From: Haloarchaeobius amylolyticus
Lineage (GTDB): Archaea > Halobacteriota > Halobacteria > Halobacteriales > Natrialbaceae
Reading direction: 5' to 3'
Assembly (NCBI RefSeq): GCF_026616195.1
Contig: NZ_JANHDH010000002.1
Coordinates: 310,001-374,000, forward strand
DNA: 64,000 bases
The number at the start of each line of letters is the position of its first letter. The first letter of the stretch is position 1. This document shows positions 46,451-54,759 of the stretch, one piece after another. A program made the position numbers and the translations under genes. The notes beneath the pieces are model-generated. The model had not been told where the DNA came from and did not search any database. It saw only the letters and a list, made by a program, of their open reading frames with translations.

Positions 46451-47344
46451 TCACTCGTCGATGCGCACCAGGTCCGACACGTCCGGGATGTCGGCCGAGG
46501 CCTCGGTTATCTGGCGCATGCGTTCGGTGTGCTTCTCGGCGGCGTAGGCGGCCAGCCCATCGGGCCCGATGCCGGGTGCGTCCTGGTTCGCCGCGCCCGA
46601 GACGACCTGCTGGGTGAGCATCGCGAGGTCGGTGGTCAGGTCGTAGAGGTCCTGCGGGTCGACCGCGCCCGACTCGACGAGGTCCTTCAGTTTCGCCATC
46701 CCGAAGCCGACGTGGCGGCCCTCGTCCGACCGGATCTTCGAGAACCCGTCGACCAGTCCCGGTAACTCCGGGACGCCCTCGGTCGTCCCGTCGAAGGTGT
46801 TCTGGACGCCGTAGTAACCGGTCTGGGCGAGGATGCCCTCGATGGTCAGGTGGTAGTGACAGTATGCCTCGGCACGGGTCCGTGGGGTGTCCTCGGAGAG
46901 CAGGCGGTGCATCGCCGCCTCGTTGCGCTCGAACAGCTCGACGTAGGCGTCGTTGTACCACTTCTGGTCGCGGGGGTCCGAGCGCGCGAGTCCCCGGCGG
47001 TCCTCCTCGGGGTGGACGACACCGGTCCAGTAGCGGTGGAAGAAGTCGGCGTGCTTGGCCTCCTCGTAGAGCTGTGTCGTCACGAACAGCTGGTCGTTCA
47101 CGTCCCCGAGCACCACGCCCAGCGGCGAGAGGTCCTCCGTGACCGCCTCCTCGCCCGCGCCGAACAGCGCCAGCGTCGTGCGCAGGCGGGTGAACGTGTC
47201 GTCGTCGAGTGTCTGGATGCGCGCTCGGTCCACGTCGAGGTCGATGGCGCCGGGGTCCCAGTGTCGCTCGACCGCGTTCCGGTAGTACCGGTACGAGCGA
47301 CTCTCGGTGTCGATGTGGCCGTCCGCGTCGAACGCCGTGGTCAT
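46451..47344 (-). CDS. R2-like diiron protein (ribonucleotide reductase R2/R2lox fold)
   Basis: Predicted 297 residues, ferritin-like. Metal ligand motifs are QLYEEAKHADFFH (E95-x2-H98), TIEGILAQTGYY (E169) and DEGRHVGFG (E208-x2-H211), with a first Glu near 65-70. The length and motif spacing fit R2lox (ligand-binding oxidase) and some short R2 subunits. The radical-bearing Tyr of classical R2 is not obvious. No large subunit gene is adjacent, which supports an oxidase or a separate role. It is divergent from the MutS-related gene. The start MTTAFDADGH is chosen since the upstream frame has no conserved sequence. Confidence 0.85.
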   Translation of the reverse strand: MTTAFDADGHIDTESRSYRYYRNAVERHWDPGAIDLDVDRARIQTLDDDTFTRLRTTLALFGAGEEAVTEDLSPLGVVLGDVNDQLFVTTQLYEEAKHADFFHRYWTGVVHPEEDRRGLARSDPRDQKWYNDAYVELFERNEAAMHRLLSEDTPRTRAEAYCHYHLTIEGILAQTGYYGVQNTFDGTTEGVPELPGLVDGFSKIRSDEGRHVGFGMAKLKDLVESGAVDPQDLYDLTTDLAMLTQQVVSGAANQDAPGIGPDGLAAYAAEKHTERMRQITEASADIPDVSDLVRIDE

Positions 47345-47453
47345 GCTTGCAGGTTCGGGGGCCACCGGAAAAATCGTACCGGCGTTCATCGTGGAACCTC
47401 TTCGCCAGCCAACATCCGGGCACTTCATTGGGGACCGGCCCGTGGCGGCGCAC

Positions 47454-49199
47454 ATGCGACTGGACGACTACTGGGGAGTCGGGCCGAAGACCCGGGCACT
47501 CCTCGCCGACGAACTGGGCGAGGAACGGGCCATCCGGGCCATCGAGTCGGCCGACGTGCGGACGCTCACGCAGGCGGGGCTCTCGCGCGGCCGGGCCACC
47601 CGCATCCTCCGGCGGGCGACCGGCGGGGCAGGGATGGACGTACTCGCGACGAGCGACGCGCGCTCGGTCTACAAGGACCTCATCGACCTCGCGAGCAAGC
47701 ACGCCGTCACCGAGGGCGCGGCCGACAGCATCCGGGTGCTGACGCCGCTGGCCACGAAGGAGGCGATGGAAGACCGACTCGACGACGTGACGACCGCGCA
47801 GGCGTCGTGGGAGCGCATCGACGAGGGCGACCGCGAGGCCGTCCTCGCCGCGTTCGAGCGCTACGACGAGGCCGGCGGCGGCGAGAAGCCGGCCGTCGAG
47901 GCCGCGATGGCGCTGCTCGACGCGGGCGTCACCGACGGGGTGTTCGAACCGCTGGCGGCGCTGGACCGCGAGGCCCTCGACGAGGCCGCGGAGGCACTCG
48001 GCGCCCTCGAAGACGGTCGGGTCGCCGCCGGGGCTGACGACCGGCTCGACCGCCTGCGGGACGCCCAGGCCGCCGTCGACACGATGGAGGCCAACGCCGA
48101 GTCGGTCATCGAACGGGTCCGCGACGGCGGCGCGCGCACGACCGACGAGTTCAGCGAGGCGTTCGTCGAGCACGTCCGGAGCGAGGCCCAGGTCGACCCG
48201 GGGCGCGTCCGCGACGCGGTGCCCGAGGACGCCCGGGACGTGACCGACTTCGTGAGCAGCACCCTGCGCAACCTCTCCTCGTCACTGCGCGAGGCGGCCG
48301 ACGAACGCGAGCGCGAGGTCCGGGTCGACCTCCAGCACGCCATCAGCGACGCCCGCGAGGACGTCGACCGGGCGGTCGCGGCGGTCGACGACATCGCGCT
48401 CGACCTCTCGCTGGCCCGGTTCGCCACCGAGTTCGACCTCGTGGAGCCGACGTTCGTCGACGGCGAGGCCGCGGTCGCCGTCGCGGGCGCACGCAACCTC
48501 GACCTCGTGGCCCGCGGCGAATCGGTCCAGCCCATCCGGTACGCGCTCGGGCCGCACTCGCTGGGCGACCCGCCGGCCGGCGAGCGCGTCGCGGTCGTCA
48601 CCGGGGCGAACTCCGGCGGGAAGACGACCCTCCTCGAAACCGTCTGCCAGGTCGTCCTGCTGGCGCACATGGGCCTGCCCGTCCCGGCCGAGCGCGCCGA
48701 GGTGGCGCTGTTCGACGACGTGGTGTTCCACCGCCGGCACGCCAGTTTCAACGCGGGCGTGCTCGAATCGACGCTCAAGTCGGTCGTGCCGCCCCTGACT
48801 GGCGACGGCCGGACGCTGATGCTCGTCGACGAGTTCGAGGCCATCACCGAACCGGGCAGTGCCGCGGACCTGCTGCACGGGCTGGTCACGCTGACGGTCG
48901 ACCGCGACGCGCTGGGCGCGTTCGTCACGCACCTCGCGGACGACCTCGAACCGCTCCCGCCGGCGGCGCGGGTCGACGGTATCTTCGCCGAGGGACTCAC
49001 CGCCGACCTCGAACTGGAGGTCGACTACCAGCCCCGGTTCGGCGAACTGGGCAAGTCCACCCCGGAGTTCATCGTGTCACGGCTGGTCGCGAACGCCAGC
49101 GACCGGGTCGAACGCACCGGGTTCGAGACGCTGGCCGCGGCTGTCGGTGACGAGCTGGTGCAGAAGACGCTGGCCGACGCGGAGTGGGCGCAGGACTAG
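47454..49199 (+). CDS. MutS-related ATPase (MutS5-like) with N-terminal HhH
   Basis: Predicted 581 residues. Residues about 1-55 form a helix-hairpin-helix-like region (YWGVGPKTRALLADELG). A long helical region (about 60-360) has few conserved features, with alternating acidic/Arg helices resembling the MutS clamp/lever. The ATPase domain has Walker A GANSGGKTT (384-392) and Walker B MLVDEFEAITEPG, with the C-terminal GELGKSTPEFIVSRL. There is no mismatch-recognition domain, so it is not the repair MutS; it resembles the MutS5/MutS2 side of the family used in recombination or ribosome-collision roles. Canonical mutS and mutL lie further on. It converges with a small gene one base apart. Confidence 0.85.
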   Translation: MRLDDYWGVGPKTRALLADELGEERAIRAIESADVRTLTQAGLSRGRATRILRRATGGAGMDVLATSDARSVYKDLIDLASKHAVTEGAADSIRVLTPLATKEAMEDRLDDVTTAQASWERIDEGDREAVLAAFERYDEAGGGEKPAVEAAMALLDAGVTDGVFEPLAALDREALDEAAEALGALEDGRVAAGADDRLDRLRDAQAAVDTMEANAESVIERVRDGGARTTDEFSEAFVEHVRSEAQVDPGRVRDAVPEDARDVTDFVSSTLRNLSSSLREAADEREREVRVDLQHAISDAREDVDRAVAAVDDIALDLSLARFATEFDLVEPTFVDGEAAVAVAGARNLDLVARGESVQPIRYALGPHSLGDPPAGERVAVVTGANSGGKTTLLETVCQVVLLAHMGLPVPAERAEVALFDDVVFHRRHASFNAGVLESTLKSVVPPLTGDGRTLMLVDEFEAITEPGSAADLLHGLVTLTVDRDALGAFVTHLADDLEPLPPAARVDGIFAEGLTADLELEVDYQPRFGELGKSTPEFIVSRLVANASDRVERTGFETLAAAVGDELVQKTLADAEWAQD

Positions 49200-49585: not shown

Positions 49586-50056
49586 TTACTGGATGTCGAT
49601 GCTGCGGCCCGACTCCTCGTCCATCGTCGCGAAGGGGAGGTGGACCTCGAGGACGCCGTTGCGGTACGAGGCGGTGATCTCGTCGGCGAGGATCTCGCGG
49701 GGGATGCGGACCTGTTCGCTCATGCGGCGCGAGCGGCGCATCCAGACGTTCTCGGCGGACTCGTCCTCCTCGCGCTCGGCGACGATGCGGAGCATGCCGT
49801 CGTCGTAGGTGCACGCGATGTCGGACTTCTCGAAGCCGGGGATGTCCATGACGAAGACGTACATCGTGTCCTCCTCGGTGAGCATCATGCCGGACTGCTC
49901 GAAGCCGCGCGAACCGACGTTGGCTCGGGTCGTGAGGTCCCCGCGTCGGGTCTCGAGTTCGGGTGTCATGCCGGCCCAGTTGCGGCGCATCTGGTCGAAC
50001 ATGCGGTCCATCTGGTCGAACATCGAGTTCATGTCGTCGAATCTCTTGAAGCTCAT
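49586..50056 (-). CDS. Hsp20 small heat shock protein
   Basis: Predicted 156 residues. A Met/Arg/Asp N-terminus (DDMNSMFDQMDRMFDQMRR) is followed by the alpha-crystallin domain (about 55-156): VFVMDIPGFEKSDI, the block AENVWMRRSRRMSE and the end YRNGVLEVHLP, which matches the A-x-x-x-G-V-L motif. It holds unfolded proteins. The start MSFKRFDDM is chosen over a start in a conserved promoter block: a TATA-like TTTATATCC is found about 30 bp upstream. The next gene upstream on the same strand is a second, much larger Hsp20, with which it shares a 34-nt identical stretch (49724-49757 and 50421-50454). Confidence 0.94.
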   Translation of the reverse strand: MSFKRFDDMNSMFDQMDRMFDQMRRNWAGMTPELETRRGDLTTRANVGSRGFEQSGMMLTEEDTMYVFVMDIPGFEKSDIACTYDDGMLRIVAEREEDESAENVWMRRSRRMSEQVRIPREILADEITASYRNGVLEVHLPFATMDEESGRSIDIQ

Positions 50057-50092: not shown

Positions 50093-50279
50093 CATATGTG
50101 GATGGCTGTTAGCACGCTTCTTTCGCGTGGAAACGAAGGTCTGAGGGAATTCGTACTCGGTAGGGGACCTATCTGGCAGATGGGTCGTCCTGTCGCCCCG
50201 GGCGGCGCATCGCGTCGGCGGTCCCGGAACCAGTCAAAGAACAGGAACACCCGCTGGTGTCGTGTGTGCGGTCGACTCC

Positions 50280-51266
50280 TCAGTCGCGGATGGAGATGAC
50301 CTGGGCGCTGCGGCCGTCGCGGCCGGCGATGGGCATGCGGACCTCGAGGATGCCGTTGCGGTACGACGCGCTGAAGCCGTCGACGTCGACGGGGCGCGGG
50401 ACCGGGATGCGCTCGCTCACGCGGCGCGAGCGGCGCATCCAGACGTTCTCGGCGTCGCGGCTGCCCTCGCGGGAGGCGTCGACGTAGAAGACGCCGTCCT
50501 CGTAGGAGCACTCGATGTCACCGCGCTCGAAGCCGGGCAGTTCACAGATACAGACGTACTCGCCGTCGATCTCGCGGAGCTCGTAGCCGCGGCCCGCCTC
50601 GACCGGGGAGCCGGCGTAGTAGCCCGTCTCCTCGGACATGTACTCGCCCATGGGGCGCATCGCGGGGCGGTCCATCGGGCGGGGTGCGAAGCGTCGGTAG
50701 TAGTCGCCGCGGGACTCGCCGCGCGGTGCGTCCATCCCGCGGCCACGCGGGTAGTAGTCCTCGCTCATGCGGTAGTCGCCGCGCGGGTAGTAGTAGTCGC
50801 CGCGCGCGTAGAACTCGGGTCGGTAGTCGCCGCGGAACTCGCTGCGGGGGGAGTAGCTCTCACCGCGGGGGTAGTAGCTCTCGCCACGCGGGTAGTATCC
50901 CTCGCCGCGATAGTAGCTCTCGCCACGCGAGTAGTAGTCGCCCTCGCCGCGGTAGCCCTCCGACGGGTAGTAGTCGGGACGCCGGTAGTCACCGCGGTAC
51001 TCGCCGCGTGGGTAGTAGTAGTCGTCCTCGTATCGCGGGCGCGACCCCTCGTAGCGTCGTCGCGGATAGGAGCGACCGGCTCGTCGGCCGTCCCATTCCT
51101 CGAAGAACCGCGGCACCTCGCCGCCGCGGCGGTCGCCCGCCGCGTAGTAGTCACCGCCCATGCGCTCGTCGCCGCGCATCGCGTCGTAGCCGCGACGCAT
51201 CGGGGCGGGGAAGCGGGTCGGTCGGTCGTACGTGTAGTCCATGTCGGACGGAGTGTAGCTCGCCAT
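50280..51266 (-). CDS. Hsp20 with long Tyr/Arg/Gly-rich N-terminal low-complexity domain
   Basis: Predicted 328 residues, about double a normal Hsp20. The alpha-crystallin domain occupies about 225-328: ICELPGFERGDIECSYEDG, the shared block DAENVWMRRSRRVSE and YRNGILEVRMP. Residues about 60-200 are low-complexity; in 81-190 I count 27 Tyr, 19 Arg and 16 Gly among 110, with 12 RG[DE] motifs and repeats such as YYPRGES. There is no Lys in this segment. Such composition is unusual in a halophile and resembles disordered domains that phase separate. The start MASYTPSD lies 20 bp below a promoter block nearly identical to that of the smaller Hsp20 downstream. Confidence 0.9.
   Translation of the reverse strand: MASYTPSDMDYTYDRPTRFPAPMRRGYDAMRGDERMGGDYYAAGDRRGGEVPRFFEEWDGRRAGRSYPRRRYEGSRPRYEDDYYYPRGEYRGDYRRPDYYPSEGYRGEGDYYSRGESYYRGEGYYPRGESYYPRGESYSPRSEFRGDYRPEFYARGDYYYPRGDYRMSEDYYPRGRGMDAPRGESRGDYYRRFAPRPMDRPAMRPMGEYMSEETGYYAGSPVEAGRGYELREIDGEYVCICELPGFERGDIECSYEDGVFYVDASREGSRDAENVWMRRSRRVSERIPVPRPVDVDGFSASYRNGILEVRMPIAGRDGRSAQVISIRD
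50697..51026 (-). repeat. Imperfect repeats coding the YYPRGE-type low-complexity domain
   Basis: The DNA repeats units of about 18-21 bp coding Tyr-Tyr-Pro-Arg-Gly-Glu-Ser and variants, most regular near 50835-50940. TAC, CGC/CGT and GGC/GGT codons recur with some third-base variation, so the repeat is kept at protein level more than at DNA level. It lies wholly within the Hsp20 coding sequence. Confidence 0.8.
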
Positions 51267-51285
51267 GGGTACCACGATGTACGAA

Positions 51286-51300
51286 CCATAAGAAGATAAA
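51286..51300 (-). promoter_or_regulatory. Conserved core promoter of the large Hsp20 gene
   Basis: On the minus strand TTTATCTTCTTATGG, with two mismatches to the block before the smaller Hsp20. TATA-like TTTATC lies about 33 bp from the ATG, so the mRNA would have a 5'UTR of only a few bases. Confidence 0.7.
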
Positions 51301-51374
51301 TACATCTGCAGTCTGTGTAATGGTGCTTTAGAAGGCTGGAGAACACCACCGGGAATATAATGGTCTGATTTATA

Positions 51375-52784
51375 TTATTTCTCGACCGCGGCCGCGGCCT
51401 CCCGGAACAGTCCGTCGAGGATCTCCGGCGTGGTCGGGTGGTACGCCCGGTCCGGTAGCTCGCGCACGTCGAGTTCCATCTCGACCGCGAGCTGGAGCGT
51501 CTTCGCCATCACGTCGGCGTGGTAGTGCAGCCCCTGGTAGCCGAGGACGGTCCCGTCGTCGGCGTCGACCACGAGCGAGGCCAGCCCCTCGGGCACGTCC
51601 TTCGTCTTGAACACGCCGTCGTCGCTGGCCTCGCGGGTGACGTGGACGAAGTCGAGGCCGGCCTCCTCCGCGGAGGACTTCGAGTGCCCCACGCGGGCGA
51701 AGGGGTAGACCCCCAGCCCGGAGAAGATGACGTGGTGGTGGACGTTCTCGTACTCGGTGATGTCCTCCTCGTCACCGCGGGCGTGGGCGAGGATGTTGTC
51801 CGCGGCGGTGAACCCCTGCTCTTTCGCGACGTGGAGGATGGGCTCCTTCCCGTTCACGTCGCCGACCACGAAGACGTGGTCGTCCTCGCGGGCCTGCATG
51901 GTGTCGCGGACCCAGCCTTCCTCGGGGTCCAGGCTGGTGTTCTGCAGCCCGAGGCGGTCGAGGTTCGGCTTGCGACCGGTAAAGAGGAACAGTTCGTCGG
52001 CCTCGACGACCGTCTCCTCGCCGTCCTCGTCGAGATAGAGGCGGACCCCGCCGTCCTCGGTGGGTTCGAGGCGCTGCTCGTAGGCGTGGCGGCGCACGTC
52101 GATGTCCCAGTTCTCCTCGTAGATGTCGAGTGCGGCGTCGCCGAAGGGCGCATCGGCCTCGTCGATGGGCCGGGCGTCGTGCTCGACCACGGTCAGGGAG
52201 GTCCCGCCGGCCTCGGCGATGTACGGGACGAGTTCCATCCCGATGTAGCCAAAGCCCATGACGATGCCCGAGTCGGGGAACTCGGTCCGGTCGAGGACGT
52301 CCGCGCTCGTCGAGAAGTCGACCGAGTCGATGCCCGGCAGGTCCGGGACATTCACGGACGACCCCGTCGCGACCACGACGTAGTCCGGTTCGATGGTCTC
52401 GCCGCCGACCGCGATGACCCGGTCGTCGACGAACTCGGCGGTGTCGTGGATGAACTCGACGTTCTCGCGCTCGGCGAGGTCGTGGATGGACTCGCGGCGG
52501 TGGCCGGCCCACGAGAGGGTGTGTTCGTTCTTGCGCTCGACCACGGCCTCCAGGTCGACGTCGGGGAGGTCGCCCACCAGCCGGTCGTCGTGTCGTGCCT
52601 GGAACCGGTGGGCGCCCGCGGAGAGGACCTCCTTCGAGGGCATACAGCCCCGGAGGATGCAGAGCCCACCACCCGGCTCGCCGTCGTCGACGAGGGTCAA
52701 CTCGATACCGGGTTCGTCGGCCAGCTCGCCGGCGACCGCGGCGCCGGCACTCCCGTACGCGCCGATGATAGCGACGTGTGTCAT
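51375..52784 (-). CDS. Dihydrolipoamide dehydrogenase-like flavoprotein
   Basis: Predicted 469 residues of the class I pyridine nucleotide-disulfide oxidoreductase family. FAD binding is at the start (HVAIIGAYGSAGAAVA), the redox motif is GGGLCILRGCMPSK (C-x4-C), NAD(P) binding is MGFGYIGMEL and the second FAD site is HVFVVGDVNGKEP. The C-terminal dimer domain ends with AYHPTTPEILD, supplying the catalytic His next to Pro-Thr. It may be lipoamide dehydrogenase, mercuric reductase-like or another disulfide reductase. Changes in the redox motif (GGGLC instead of GGTC) set it apart from the typical Lpd of the oxoacid complexes. No E1/E2 genes are adjacent. It lies 108 bp upstream of the large Hsp20 gene region. 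Confidence 0.88.
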   Translation of the reverse strand: MTHVAIIGAYGSAGAAVAGELADEPGIELTLVDDGEPGGGLCILRGCMPSKEVLSAGAHRFQARHDDRLVGDLPDVDLEAVVERKNEHTLSWAGHRRESIHDLAERENVEFIHDTAEFVDDRVIAVGGETIEPDYVVVATGSSVNVPDLPGIDSVDFSTSADVLDRTEFPDSGIVMGFGYIGMELVPYIAEAGGTSLTVVEHDARPIDEADAPFGDAALDIYEENWDIDVRRHAYEQRLEPTEDGGVRLYLDEDGEETVVEADELFLFTGRKPNLDRLGLQNTSLDPEEGWVRDTMQAREDDHVFVVGDVNGKEPILHVAKEQGFTAADNILAHARGDEEDITEYENVHHHVIFSGLGVYPFARVGHSKSSAEEAGLDFVHVTREASDDGVFKTKDVPEGLASLVVDADDGTVLGYQGLHYHADVMAKTLQLAVEMELDVRELPDRAYHPTTPEILDGLFREAAAAVEK

Positions 52785-53505: not shown

Positions 53506-54759
53506 TCAGCCCTGGATGCGCGCGACGCCAACGAGGGCCGCGATGGCGAGGCTGGCGACACCGAGGCCGAAGCCGGGCGAGCCGCCACTGGCGCCGGCGT
53601 CGTCGTCCGAGCCGTCACCGGCCGTCGTCGAATCCCCGGCGGTCGTTCCGTCGTCGGTGGCGTCACCGTCGCCGCCGGTGGTGTCGGCCGTGGTCGTCGC
53701 CGCGCCGCCGTCGCCCGCGCCGGACATCGTCACGGTCCGGGTCGAGAAGTGGTTGACCGCGACGTAGACCTTCGCGTCGGCGTCGGCCTGGGCGCTGCTG
53801 GTCTGCTCGACCATGTACTTCGAGGTCGCGCCGTCGTCCGCAGCGGCCCGCAACTCGCTGAAGGCGCTTGCCTTCGCGGCGGCCTCGCCGTCGACCGTGA
53901 CGGAGAGGTTCTCGACGCTGCCGACGGCCTGCTCGCGGACGTGGGTCACGACGACCTTGCCCTCGTGGGCCTCGCGCTCGACGGTCAGCCGGACCTCGTT
54001 CTCGGCCTCCTGGCTCGTCTCGACCGTCGTGTTCTGGCTGTAGGTCACCGTGTCGACGACGGTCTCGCCGTCCTGCTCGGTGACGTAGACCTCGGCGGCG
54101 GCCTCACCGTCGGCGATGAGCGTCGCGGTCTGCGCCTCCTGCTGGCTGCGCTCCTCGCCGGCGGACCGGAAGACGAGCCGGGCGTCCTCGCCCAACTTCG
54201 CCGTCACGTCGCCCTCCTCGTCGACGGCGACGCGCCCGTCACCGACCACGATGAACGAGCCAGTCGTCCCGTTCTCGGTGGTCACGGTGACGCGACTGTC
54301 GCTCTGCTGGTCGGCGGTCGCGCCGGCGGCGACGTCCGCGTCGACGACCTGGGACTGCTCGGCCGCCGTGACGACGAGCGTCCCGTCGTCGTTGTCGTGG
54401 GCGGTCAGTTCCGCGCCGCTCTGGGTCCGGACGTCGGCCTGCGTCGTCGACTCGGCGGCGACCGAGAGGCCGGCCGCGTCGAGTTCGGTGACGGTCTGCA
54501 GGTCGAGGTCACCGTCGAGGCCGACGCCGAGCCCCTCCTTGACCTGCGACTCGGACTGGACCTGGACGGACTCGACCATCGTGTGGCCGTTCACCGTGTA
54601 GTTCGCGACCGCGTCCGACTGCGCCTGGAACGTGACGTGCGCTCCGGCGTAGGTACTCGTCTCGGGTGTTGTACTCGTCGCTGCGGTCGCGCCGGCGGCC
54701 GAGGCCGGGACCGACGCGACAACCATCAGCATCGCGAACAGTACTGGTATCCGTTTCAT
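53506..54759 (-). CDS. PGF-CTERM surface protein
   Basis: Predicted 417 residues. A signal peptide is at about 1-24 (MKRIPVLFAMLMVVASVPASA). The body is beta-rich, with many Gln/Glu/Ser/Thr/Val repeats, several N-x-S/T sites and no recognised enzyme domain. A Thr/Gly/Asp linker (about 345-390) precedes PGF (395-397), a hydrophobic helix and a basic end: the PGF-CTERM signal read by archaeosortase A, which swaps the helix for a lipid anchor. It is therefore expected to be exported, lipid-modified and possibly glycosylated at the cell surface. Its role is unknown; the strongly acidic/Ser-rich body suggests an adhesin or stabilising layer protein. Confidence 0.85.
   Translation of the reverse strand: MKRIPVLFAMLMVVASVPASAAGATAATSTTPETSTYAGAHVTFQAQSDAVANYTVNGHTMVESVQVQSESQVKEGLGVGLDGDLDLQTVTELDAAGLSVAAESTTQADVRTQSGAELTAHDNDDGTLVVTAAEQSQVVDADVAAGATADQQSDSRVTVTTENGTTGSFIVVGDGRVAVDEEGDVTAKLGEDARLVFRSAGEERSQQEAQTATLIADGEAAAEVYVTEQDGETVVDTVTYSQNTTVETSQEAENEVRLTVEREAHEGKVVVTHVREQAVGSVENLSVTVDGEAAAKASAFSELRAAADDGATSKYMVEQTSSAQADADAKVYVAVNHFSTRTVTMSGAGDGGAATTTADTTGGDGDATDDGTTAGDSTTAGDGSDDDAGASGGSPGFGLGVASLAIAALVGVARIQG

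Follow-up and report, generated by a model that had tools for sequence, protein, structure and literature searches.

A haloarchaeal small heat-shock protein with a tyrosine- and arginine-rich, predicted disordered arm

Results

A long Hsp20 gene beside a plain paralog

The window analyzed here, a 64,000-nucleotide stretch of a Haloarchaeobius amylolyticus genome (G000), carries on its reverse strand a gene for a long Hsp20 protein, which lies between a plain tandem paralog and an oxidoreductase-family gene (Table 1). The start at MASYTPS was preferred over an in-frame upstream ATG at 51305 because a TATA-like element sits within that extension. No Rfam element was found at the long Hsp20 locus. 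Elsewhere in the window, a secreted-looking protein (53506–54759, reverse strand) has a PGFG...hydrophobic...R end that resembles a PGF-CTERM sorting signal, and a MutS-family ATPase-like protein (47307–49199, forward strand) misses all curated cut-offs (KamC-like, 80.7 bits versus 300; MutS2, 66.8 versus 400) and so belongs to a MutS-related family without assignment.

Table 1 Features of the long Hsp20 locus, in window coordinates
Feature	Position	Strand	Details or basis
Long Hsp20 gene	50280..51266	−	328 aa; start MASYTPS
Alpha-crystallin domain (ACD) and C-terminal I-x-I	50289..50594	−	Pfam HSP20, model, Foldseek, phmmer
ISI (I-x-I motif), residues 324–326	50289–50297	−	Both Ile (nearly) invariant among 26 homologues
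Tyr/Arg/Gly repeat region, residues 79–195	50682..51032	−	28 Tyr, 21 Arg, 17 Gly, 23 Asp/Glu
Entire predicted disordered arm, residues 36–218 (~183 residues)	50613..51161	−	pLDDT ~40; charge–hydropathy
Short motif PRFFEEWDxRRxxxSYPRR, ahead of the repeats	51057..51113	−	Conserved; weak helix 53–62 in model
N-terminal helix, residues 22–35	51162..51203	−	Alignment with plain haloarchaeal Hsp20s; model
Plain tandem Hsp20 paralog	49586..50056	−	156 aa, armless; 169 aa from ATG at 50095
FAD/NAD(P) disulfide-oxidoreductase-family neighbor	51375..52784	−	Syntenic with an Hsp20 in G002, G004 and G005; locus marker
29-nt upstream element AGATGTATTTATCTTCTTATGGTTCGTAC	51279..51307	−	Identical ahead of the G002 ortholog; TATA-like TTTATC at 51295–51300

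On all features checked (ACD, I-x-I and signature), the long Hsp20 is a small heat-shock protein (sHsp). The ACD occupies residues ~225–326 of the 328, with Pfam HSP20 (PF00011) matching residues 232–326 (E = 2.5e-9; 37.6 bits versus a cut-off of 20.8), and solved sHsps are matched both by sequence (phmmer) and by fold (Foldseek). In an AlphaFold model based on 26 homologues, this domain is predicted to form a beta-sandwich, mostly at pLDDT >90, and A300, Y302, G305, L307, I324 and I326 are invariant or nearly invariant among 26 homologues. The segment ASYRNGILEV corresponds to the A-x-x-x-n-G-v-L signature, and the I-x-I/V motif follows it. An earlier note on this DNA had described an ordinary alpha-crystallin domain behind a Tyr/Arg/Gly-rich stretch, and this description holds, including for the ortholog in a second genome of the genus (G002). 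The NCBIfam Hsp14/Hsp20 equivalogs NF041799 and NF041800 give the long Hsp20 50.1 bits versus 100 and 39.8 bits versus 140, and these curated cut-offs are also missed by the plain paralog.

Ahead of the ACD, the N-terminal helix (residues 22–35), which is modeled at low confidence, aligns with a helix of the form F-D-x-M-x-x-M-F in plain haloarchaeal Hsp20s. Residues 32–218 are then predicted at pLDDT ~40, save for a few single residues, and residues 41–224 fall below the charge–hydropathy boundary (0.306 versus 0.415). Plain haloarchaeal Hsp20s of the Hsp14/Hsp20 type share the N-terminal helix, the ACD and the I-x-I tail, and in G004 and G005 the oxidoreductase-linked locus as well. They span 139–200 aa and have no Tyr/Arg arm, whereas the long and intermediate forms described below span 264–434 aa and contain three ACD cysteines. 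These residues (Cys239, Cys241 and Cys253, at 50508–50552 of the window; V-C-I-C-E ... I-E-C) are kept in all three long and intermediate Hsp20s, whereas plain Hsp20s read VFVMD where the others have the V-C-I-C-E cysteines. Cysteine is rare among the 46 likely open reading frames (ORFs) of the window (0.64%), and a redox or metal role for the three is possible.

The short motif preceding the repeats is limited to the three long and intermediate Hsp20s. FFEEWD was rejected as a wider motif, as its family matches in eight other genomes are the tail of an unrelated protein family. Sequence matches in the PDB between the arm and designed TPR proteins were likewise dismissed as an artefact of Tyr composition, every matching domain being weak.

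The arm has an extreme and balanced composition

Retranslation reproduced exactly the counts given in the earlier note for residues 81–190 (27 Tyr, 12 RG[DE] motifs and no Lys); the same stretch contains 19 Arg and 17 Gly, and residues 1–224 contain 41 Arg, 39 Tyr and 30 Gly. Against a background of the 46 likely ORFs, in which Tyr makes up 2.2%, the probability of at least 27 Tyr in 110 residues is 1.5e-20 per stretch, in a genome of ~14,000 such stretches, and elsewhere in these ORFs a 110-residue stretch contains at most 10 Tyr. Residues 79–195 use a ten-letter alphabet, being free of C, H, I, K, L, N, Q, T, V and W. Lys is absent from all 328 residues, which is only mildly unusual at a background of 1.5% (P = 0.006). 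Codons spelling Y-x-R-G-[DE] were found at 65 sites across the 4.6-Mb genome; seven of these sites share one 240-bp stretch of the long Hsp20 gene, and the scan found no second cluster of comparable density elsewhere in the genome.

The DNA of the arm contains tandem repeats with periods of 12–108 nt. Its GC3 of 0.91 identifies this as the coding frame and, together with a syntenic ortholog in an independent genome and dN/dS values below 1 (see below), rules out an assembly artefact or false ORF.

Charge is balanced as well. Counts of Arg versus Asp plus Glu in the three arms known from the two genomes are 35/34, 62/62 and 24/25, a net charge of ~0 in each, with the caveat that the neutrality of RGD-type units is built in. 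For comparison, the likely ORFs of the window have a mean of −0.07 per residue. The charged fraction of the arms is 0.38–0.43. Both long arms mix their charges more thoroughly than shuffled controls do (z = −2.1 and −4.2). Aromatic residues show significantly even spacing in G002 (z = −4.3) and a weak tendency towards it in G000 (z = −1.3).

The arm appears to be a novelty of one genus

The G002 locus contains three tandem Hsp20 genes, encoding plain (156 aa), intermediate (264 aa) and long (434 aa) proteins, the last of which is the syntenic ortholog of the 328-aa protein with an arm ~100 residues longer. Across the three armed copies, arm lengths are 120, 184 and 290 residues. Tyr accounts for ~20–24% of both long arms and for 11 of 120 residues in the intermediate arm, so the family does not strictly depend on high Tyr. 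The intermediate gene (L039:10597-11394), whose shorter, less Tyr-rich arm includes RGRGRGERGEY and FRFRPGFGGF, has no counterpart in the window genome and could represent an intermediate stage of arm growth. In G004 and G005, only one Hsp20, plain and without arm or cysteines, follows the oxidoreductase neighbor. In the four genus members other than G000 and G002 (L040:8186-10481, L041:8652-10740, L042:7286-9356 and L043:7721-9930), a plain Hsp20 adjoins, on the opposite strand, a gene resembling the FtsZ/tubulin family (GGGTGSGG).

In an ACD tree, the two long copies and the intermediate one group together (100/100) and are joined by the two plain copies of G000 and G002 (95/90), and this whole group stands apart from the armless Hsp20s of the four other genus members. 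Together with the single plain Hsp20 in G004 and G005, the tree shows that the arm arose after tandem duplication. It grew out of the loop that links the N-terminal helix of a duplicated plain Hsp20 to its ACD, probably in an ancestor shared by G000 and G002.

No arm was found in the four other genus members, in the remaining genomes of a 125-genome family search or elsewhere among the 392 genomes sampled from the order and the 295 sampled from the phylum, which are overlapping sets; G002 gave no row in the phylum search and so evidently lies outside that sample, making the phylum figure a statement about sampling. Those weak remote arm matches from the order and family searches that were examined proved to be other high-GC or antisense frames without comparable Tyr/Arg content, and a stop-containing match in G024 is a plain Hsp20 rather than an arm homologue. 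The plasmid matches listed for the long Hsp20 cover the ACD only. Among the genomes searched, the arm is thus a lineage novelty limited to two species of one genus.

The 29-nt element upstream of the long gene has a related counterpart ahead of both plain Hsp20 genes, suggesting that each Hsp20 gene probably has its own promoter. For one haloarchaeal Hsp5, a BRE plus TATA core alone is enough for the heat response (PMC9133787).

Composition persists while the sequence turns over

Repeat units differ by species, being of the YYPRGES type in G000 and of the DYYPRGDYRSEYRGM type in G002. Despite this rapid turnover of the arm sequence, both long copies keep the ten-letter alphabet, a net charge of zero, well-mixed charges and high Tyr. 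When the alphabet was set on G000 and G002 served as a held-out test, only 3 of 255 residues of the G002 arm fell outside the ten letters, versus ~14 expected, along with the loss of several Tyr, when neutral evolution was simulated at 0.05 substitutions per site. Among repeat units picked by nucleotide similarity alone, dN/dS is 0.49 in G000 (only 45 codon pairs) and 0.41 in G002 (overlapping comparisons), values that alignment and homogenization bias downwards. Codon-position counts on motif-selected units proved biased and gave way to these nucleotide-selected segments. Between species, dN/dS is 0.64 for the arm, where the alignment is uncertain and repeats may homogenize, and 0.43 for the ACD.

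These results bear on near-neutral repeat expansion, in which slippage or recombination within a GC-rich codon repeat stretched a tolerant loop after duplication and the composition is a by-product. The tandem DNA repeats, the restriction of the arm to two species and the unequal lengths of the orthologs would all be expected from such a process, as would residues 196–224, a short stretch without visible constraint (dN/dS = 1.86). Set against it are repeat-unit dN/dS values below 1, an alphabet better kept than in the neutral simulation, freedom from stops and frameshifts in the three arms, and neutral net charge in every one of them. We consider this explanation unlikely, and the sequence data give moderate, not conclusive, support to selection on arm composition as a better fit than random expansion. 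The earlier note had held that its idea would fail if homologues lacking the repeat were the rule and the repeat looked like random expansion: armless homologues are indeed the rule, but dN/dS below 1 and the retained composition oppose the second part.

Discussion

Haloarchaeal cytoplasm contains molar KCl, which would place a Tyr/Arg arm permanently within the high-salt regime of FUS and protamine condensation. Our preferred reading, to which we assign a probability of roughly 45%, is that a multivalent Tyr/Arg sticker arm gives the long Hsp20 its own condensing or sequestering activity under these conditions. The ACD and I-x-I tail would retain client holding and oligomer assembly, and the oligomer would present many arms at once. 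With charge attraction screened in molar KCl, Tyr–Tyr, Tyr–Arg and Arg–Arg contacts could bring the arms together reversibly. Under stress, the chaperone could then collect itself and bound misfolded clients in condensates or soft aggregates, in the manner of the sequestrase Hsp42, and the adjoining plain paralog would keep the ordinary holdase role. RNA binding would be neither needed nor favored.

Precedents exist for condensation at such salt concentrations. FUS undergoes re-entrant condensation above 1.5 M KCl, the Pro-Arg peptide PR25 condenses at 2.7 M KCl (PMC7889641), and Arg-rich protamine phase-separates at ~2.75 M KCl or NaCl via non-ionic Arg contacts (PMC9705477), although this work concerns eukaryotic proteins or model polymers. 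Like FUS-type sticker proteins, the archaeal arm has Tyr and Arg as the dominant sticky residues of a putatively disordered region, but it pairs Arg with Asp/Glu to give zero net charge, and the likeness proposed here is one of composition. RGG repeats with a folded RNA-binding domain were not found, as RG[DE] dominates and HSP20 is the sole Pfam match. The eukaryote-like Tyr–Arg spacer architecture proposed in the earlier note gains from the predicted disorder and from a sticker–spacer composition that recurs in the sister ortholog, from which condensation would follow by analogy. Its further idea, a condensing chaperone that concentrates clients or RNA, is strengthened by the high-salt Tyr/Arg and eukaryotic sHsp precedents in the case of clients and weakened in the case of RNA, as a net-neutral arm with RG[DE] instead of RGG makes RNA recruitment less likely.

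Two sHsps offer the closest parallels. In Saccharomyces Hsp42, a long disordered N-terminal region promotes sequestration of misfolded proteins, although a phase-separation origin of the resulting deposits has been left undecided (PMC13287201). In Dictyostelium HSP48, another ACD protein, condensate formation in cells depends on a disordered region of the protein itself (PMC6584373). HSP48 carries its strongly basic arm (pI 10.69) at the C-terminus and is stabilized by polyphosphate, whereas the archaeal arm is N-terminal and net neutral. The long Hsp20 resembles Hsp42 in joining a long, predicted disordered N-terminal region to the ACD. By contrast, Hsp42 combines a prion-like domain with a distinct disordered domain and belongs to a eukaryotic, low-salt setting; the likeness proposed here is one of working. 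The Hsp42 prion-like domain is Asn/Gln-rich, and the repeat region of the long Hsp20 lacks both residues. Because the equivalog cut-offs and the Asn/Gln prion-like and RGG definitions all fail, the long Hsp20 is not classed as an Hsp42 or FUS homologue but as a protein that may work like one. The earlier note knew of no archaeal sHsp with a condensation arm, and we found no description of one in the literature searched, subscription papers being mostly outside that search.

There are counterpoints to a condensing arm. With so many acidic residues, the arm could be soluble in KCl, and all other genomes searched do without it. An alternative role for the arm is that of a solubilizing bristle or spacer, a hydrated neutral polyampholyte that sets oligomer size and keeps chaperone–client complexes soluble with no self-association. 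Balanced, well-mixed charges at the observed charged fraction can favor solubility, and the freely variable arm length would suit such a function; a spacer, however, has no need for 20–24% Tyr or for the exclusion of Thr, Asn, Gln and Lys, and we regard this role as doubtful. A part in oxidation or desiccation resistance, with the Tyr-rich arm as a sacrificial radical sink or dityrosine cross-linker working with the three ACD cysteines and the neighboring disulfide oxidoreductase, seems very improbable: the cysteines are kept in every long and intermediate copy despite their general scarcity and the oxidoreductase gene adjoins the long Hsp20, but the same gene also flanks a Cys-free, armless Hsp20 in G004 and G005, and Arg, Gly and charge balance are left without explanation. 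Hardly credible is an arm that binds RNA to recruit transcripts under stress, as its Arg/Gly/Tyr richness resembles RG-type RNA-binding regions but comes with zero net charge and RG[DE] in place of RGG, and molar KCl weakens electrostatic binding of RNA.

The long Hsp20 is a real, lineage-specific sHsp variant, for which we infer a condensing role by analogy. A bolder proposal, which we put forward tentatively, is that an archaeon independently evolved a Tyr/Arg sticker-and-spacer module on a chaperone and tuned it to molar KCl by charge neutrality and non-ionic contacts, yielding a high-salt, non-eukaryotic sequestrase that arose in one genus. If the arm does condense, then the Tyr/Arg grammar of eukaryotic condensates would work, and evolve quickly, at several molar KCl with electrostatics screened. 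More generally, the two genomes provide a natural series of plain (156 aa), intermediate (264 aa), long (328 aa) and longer (434 aa) proteins, which makes the evolution of a condensation module on a folded chaperone directly testable with few constructs.
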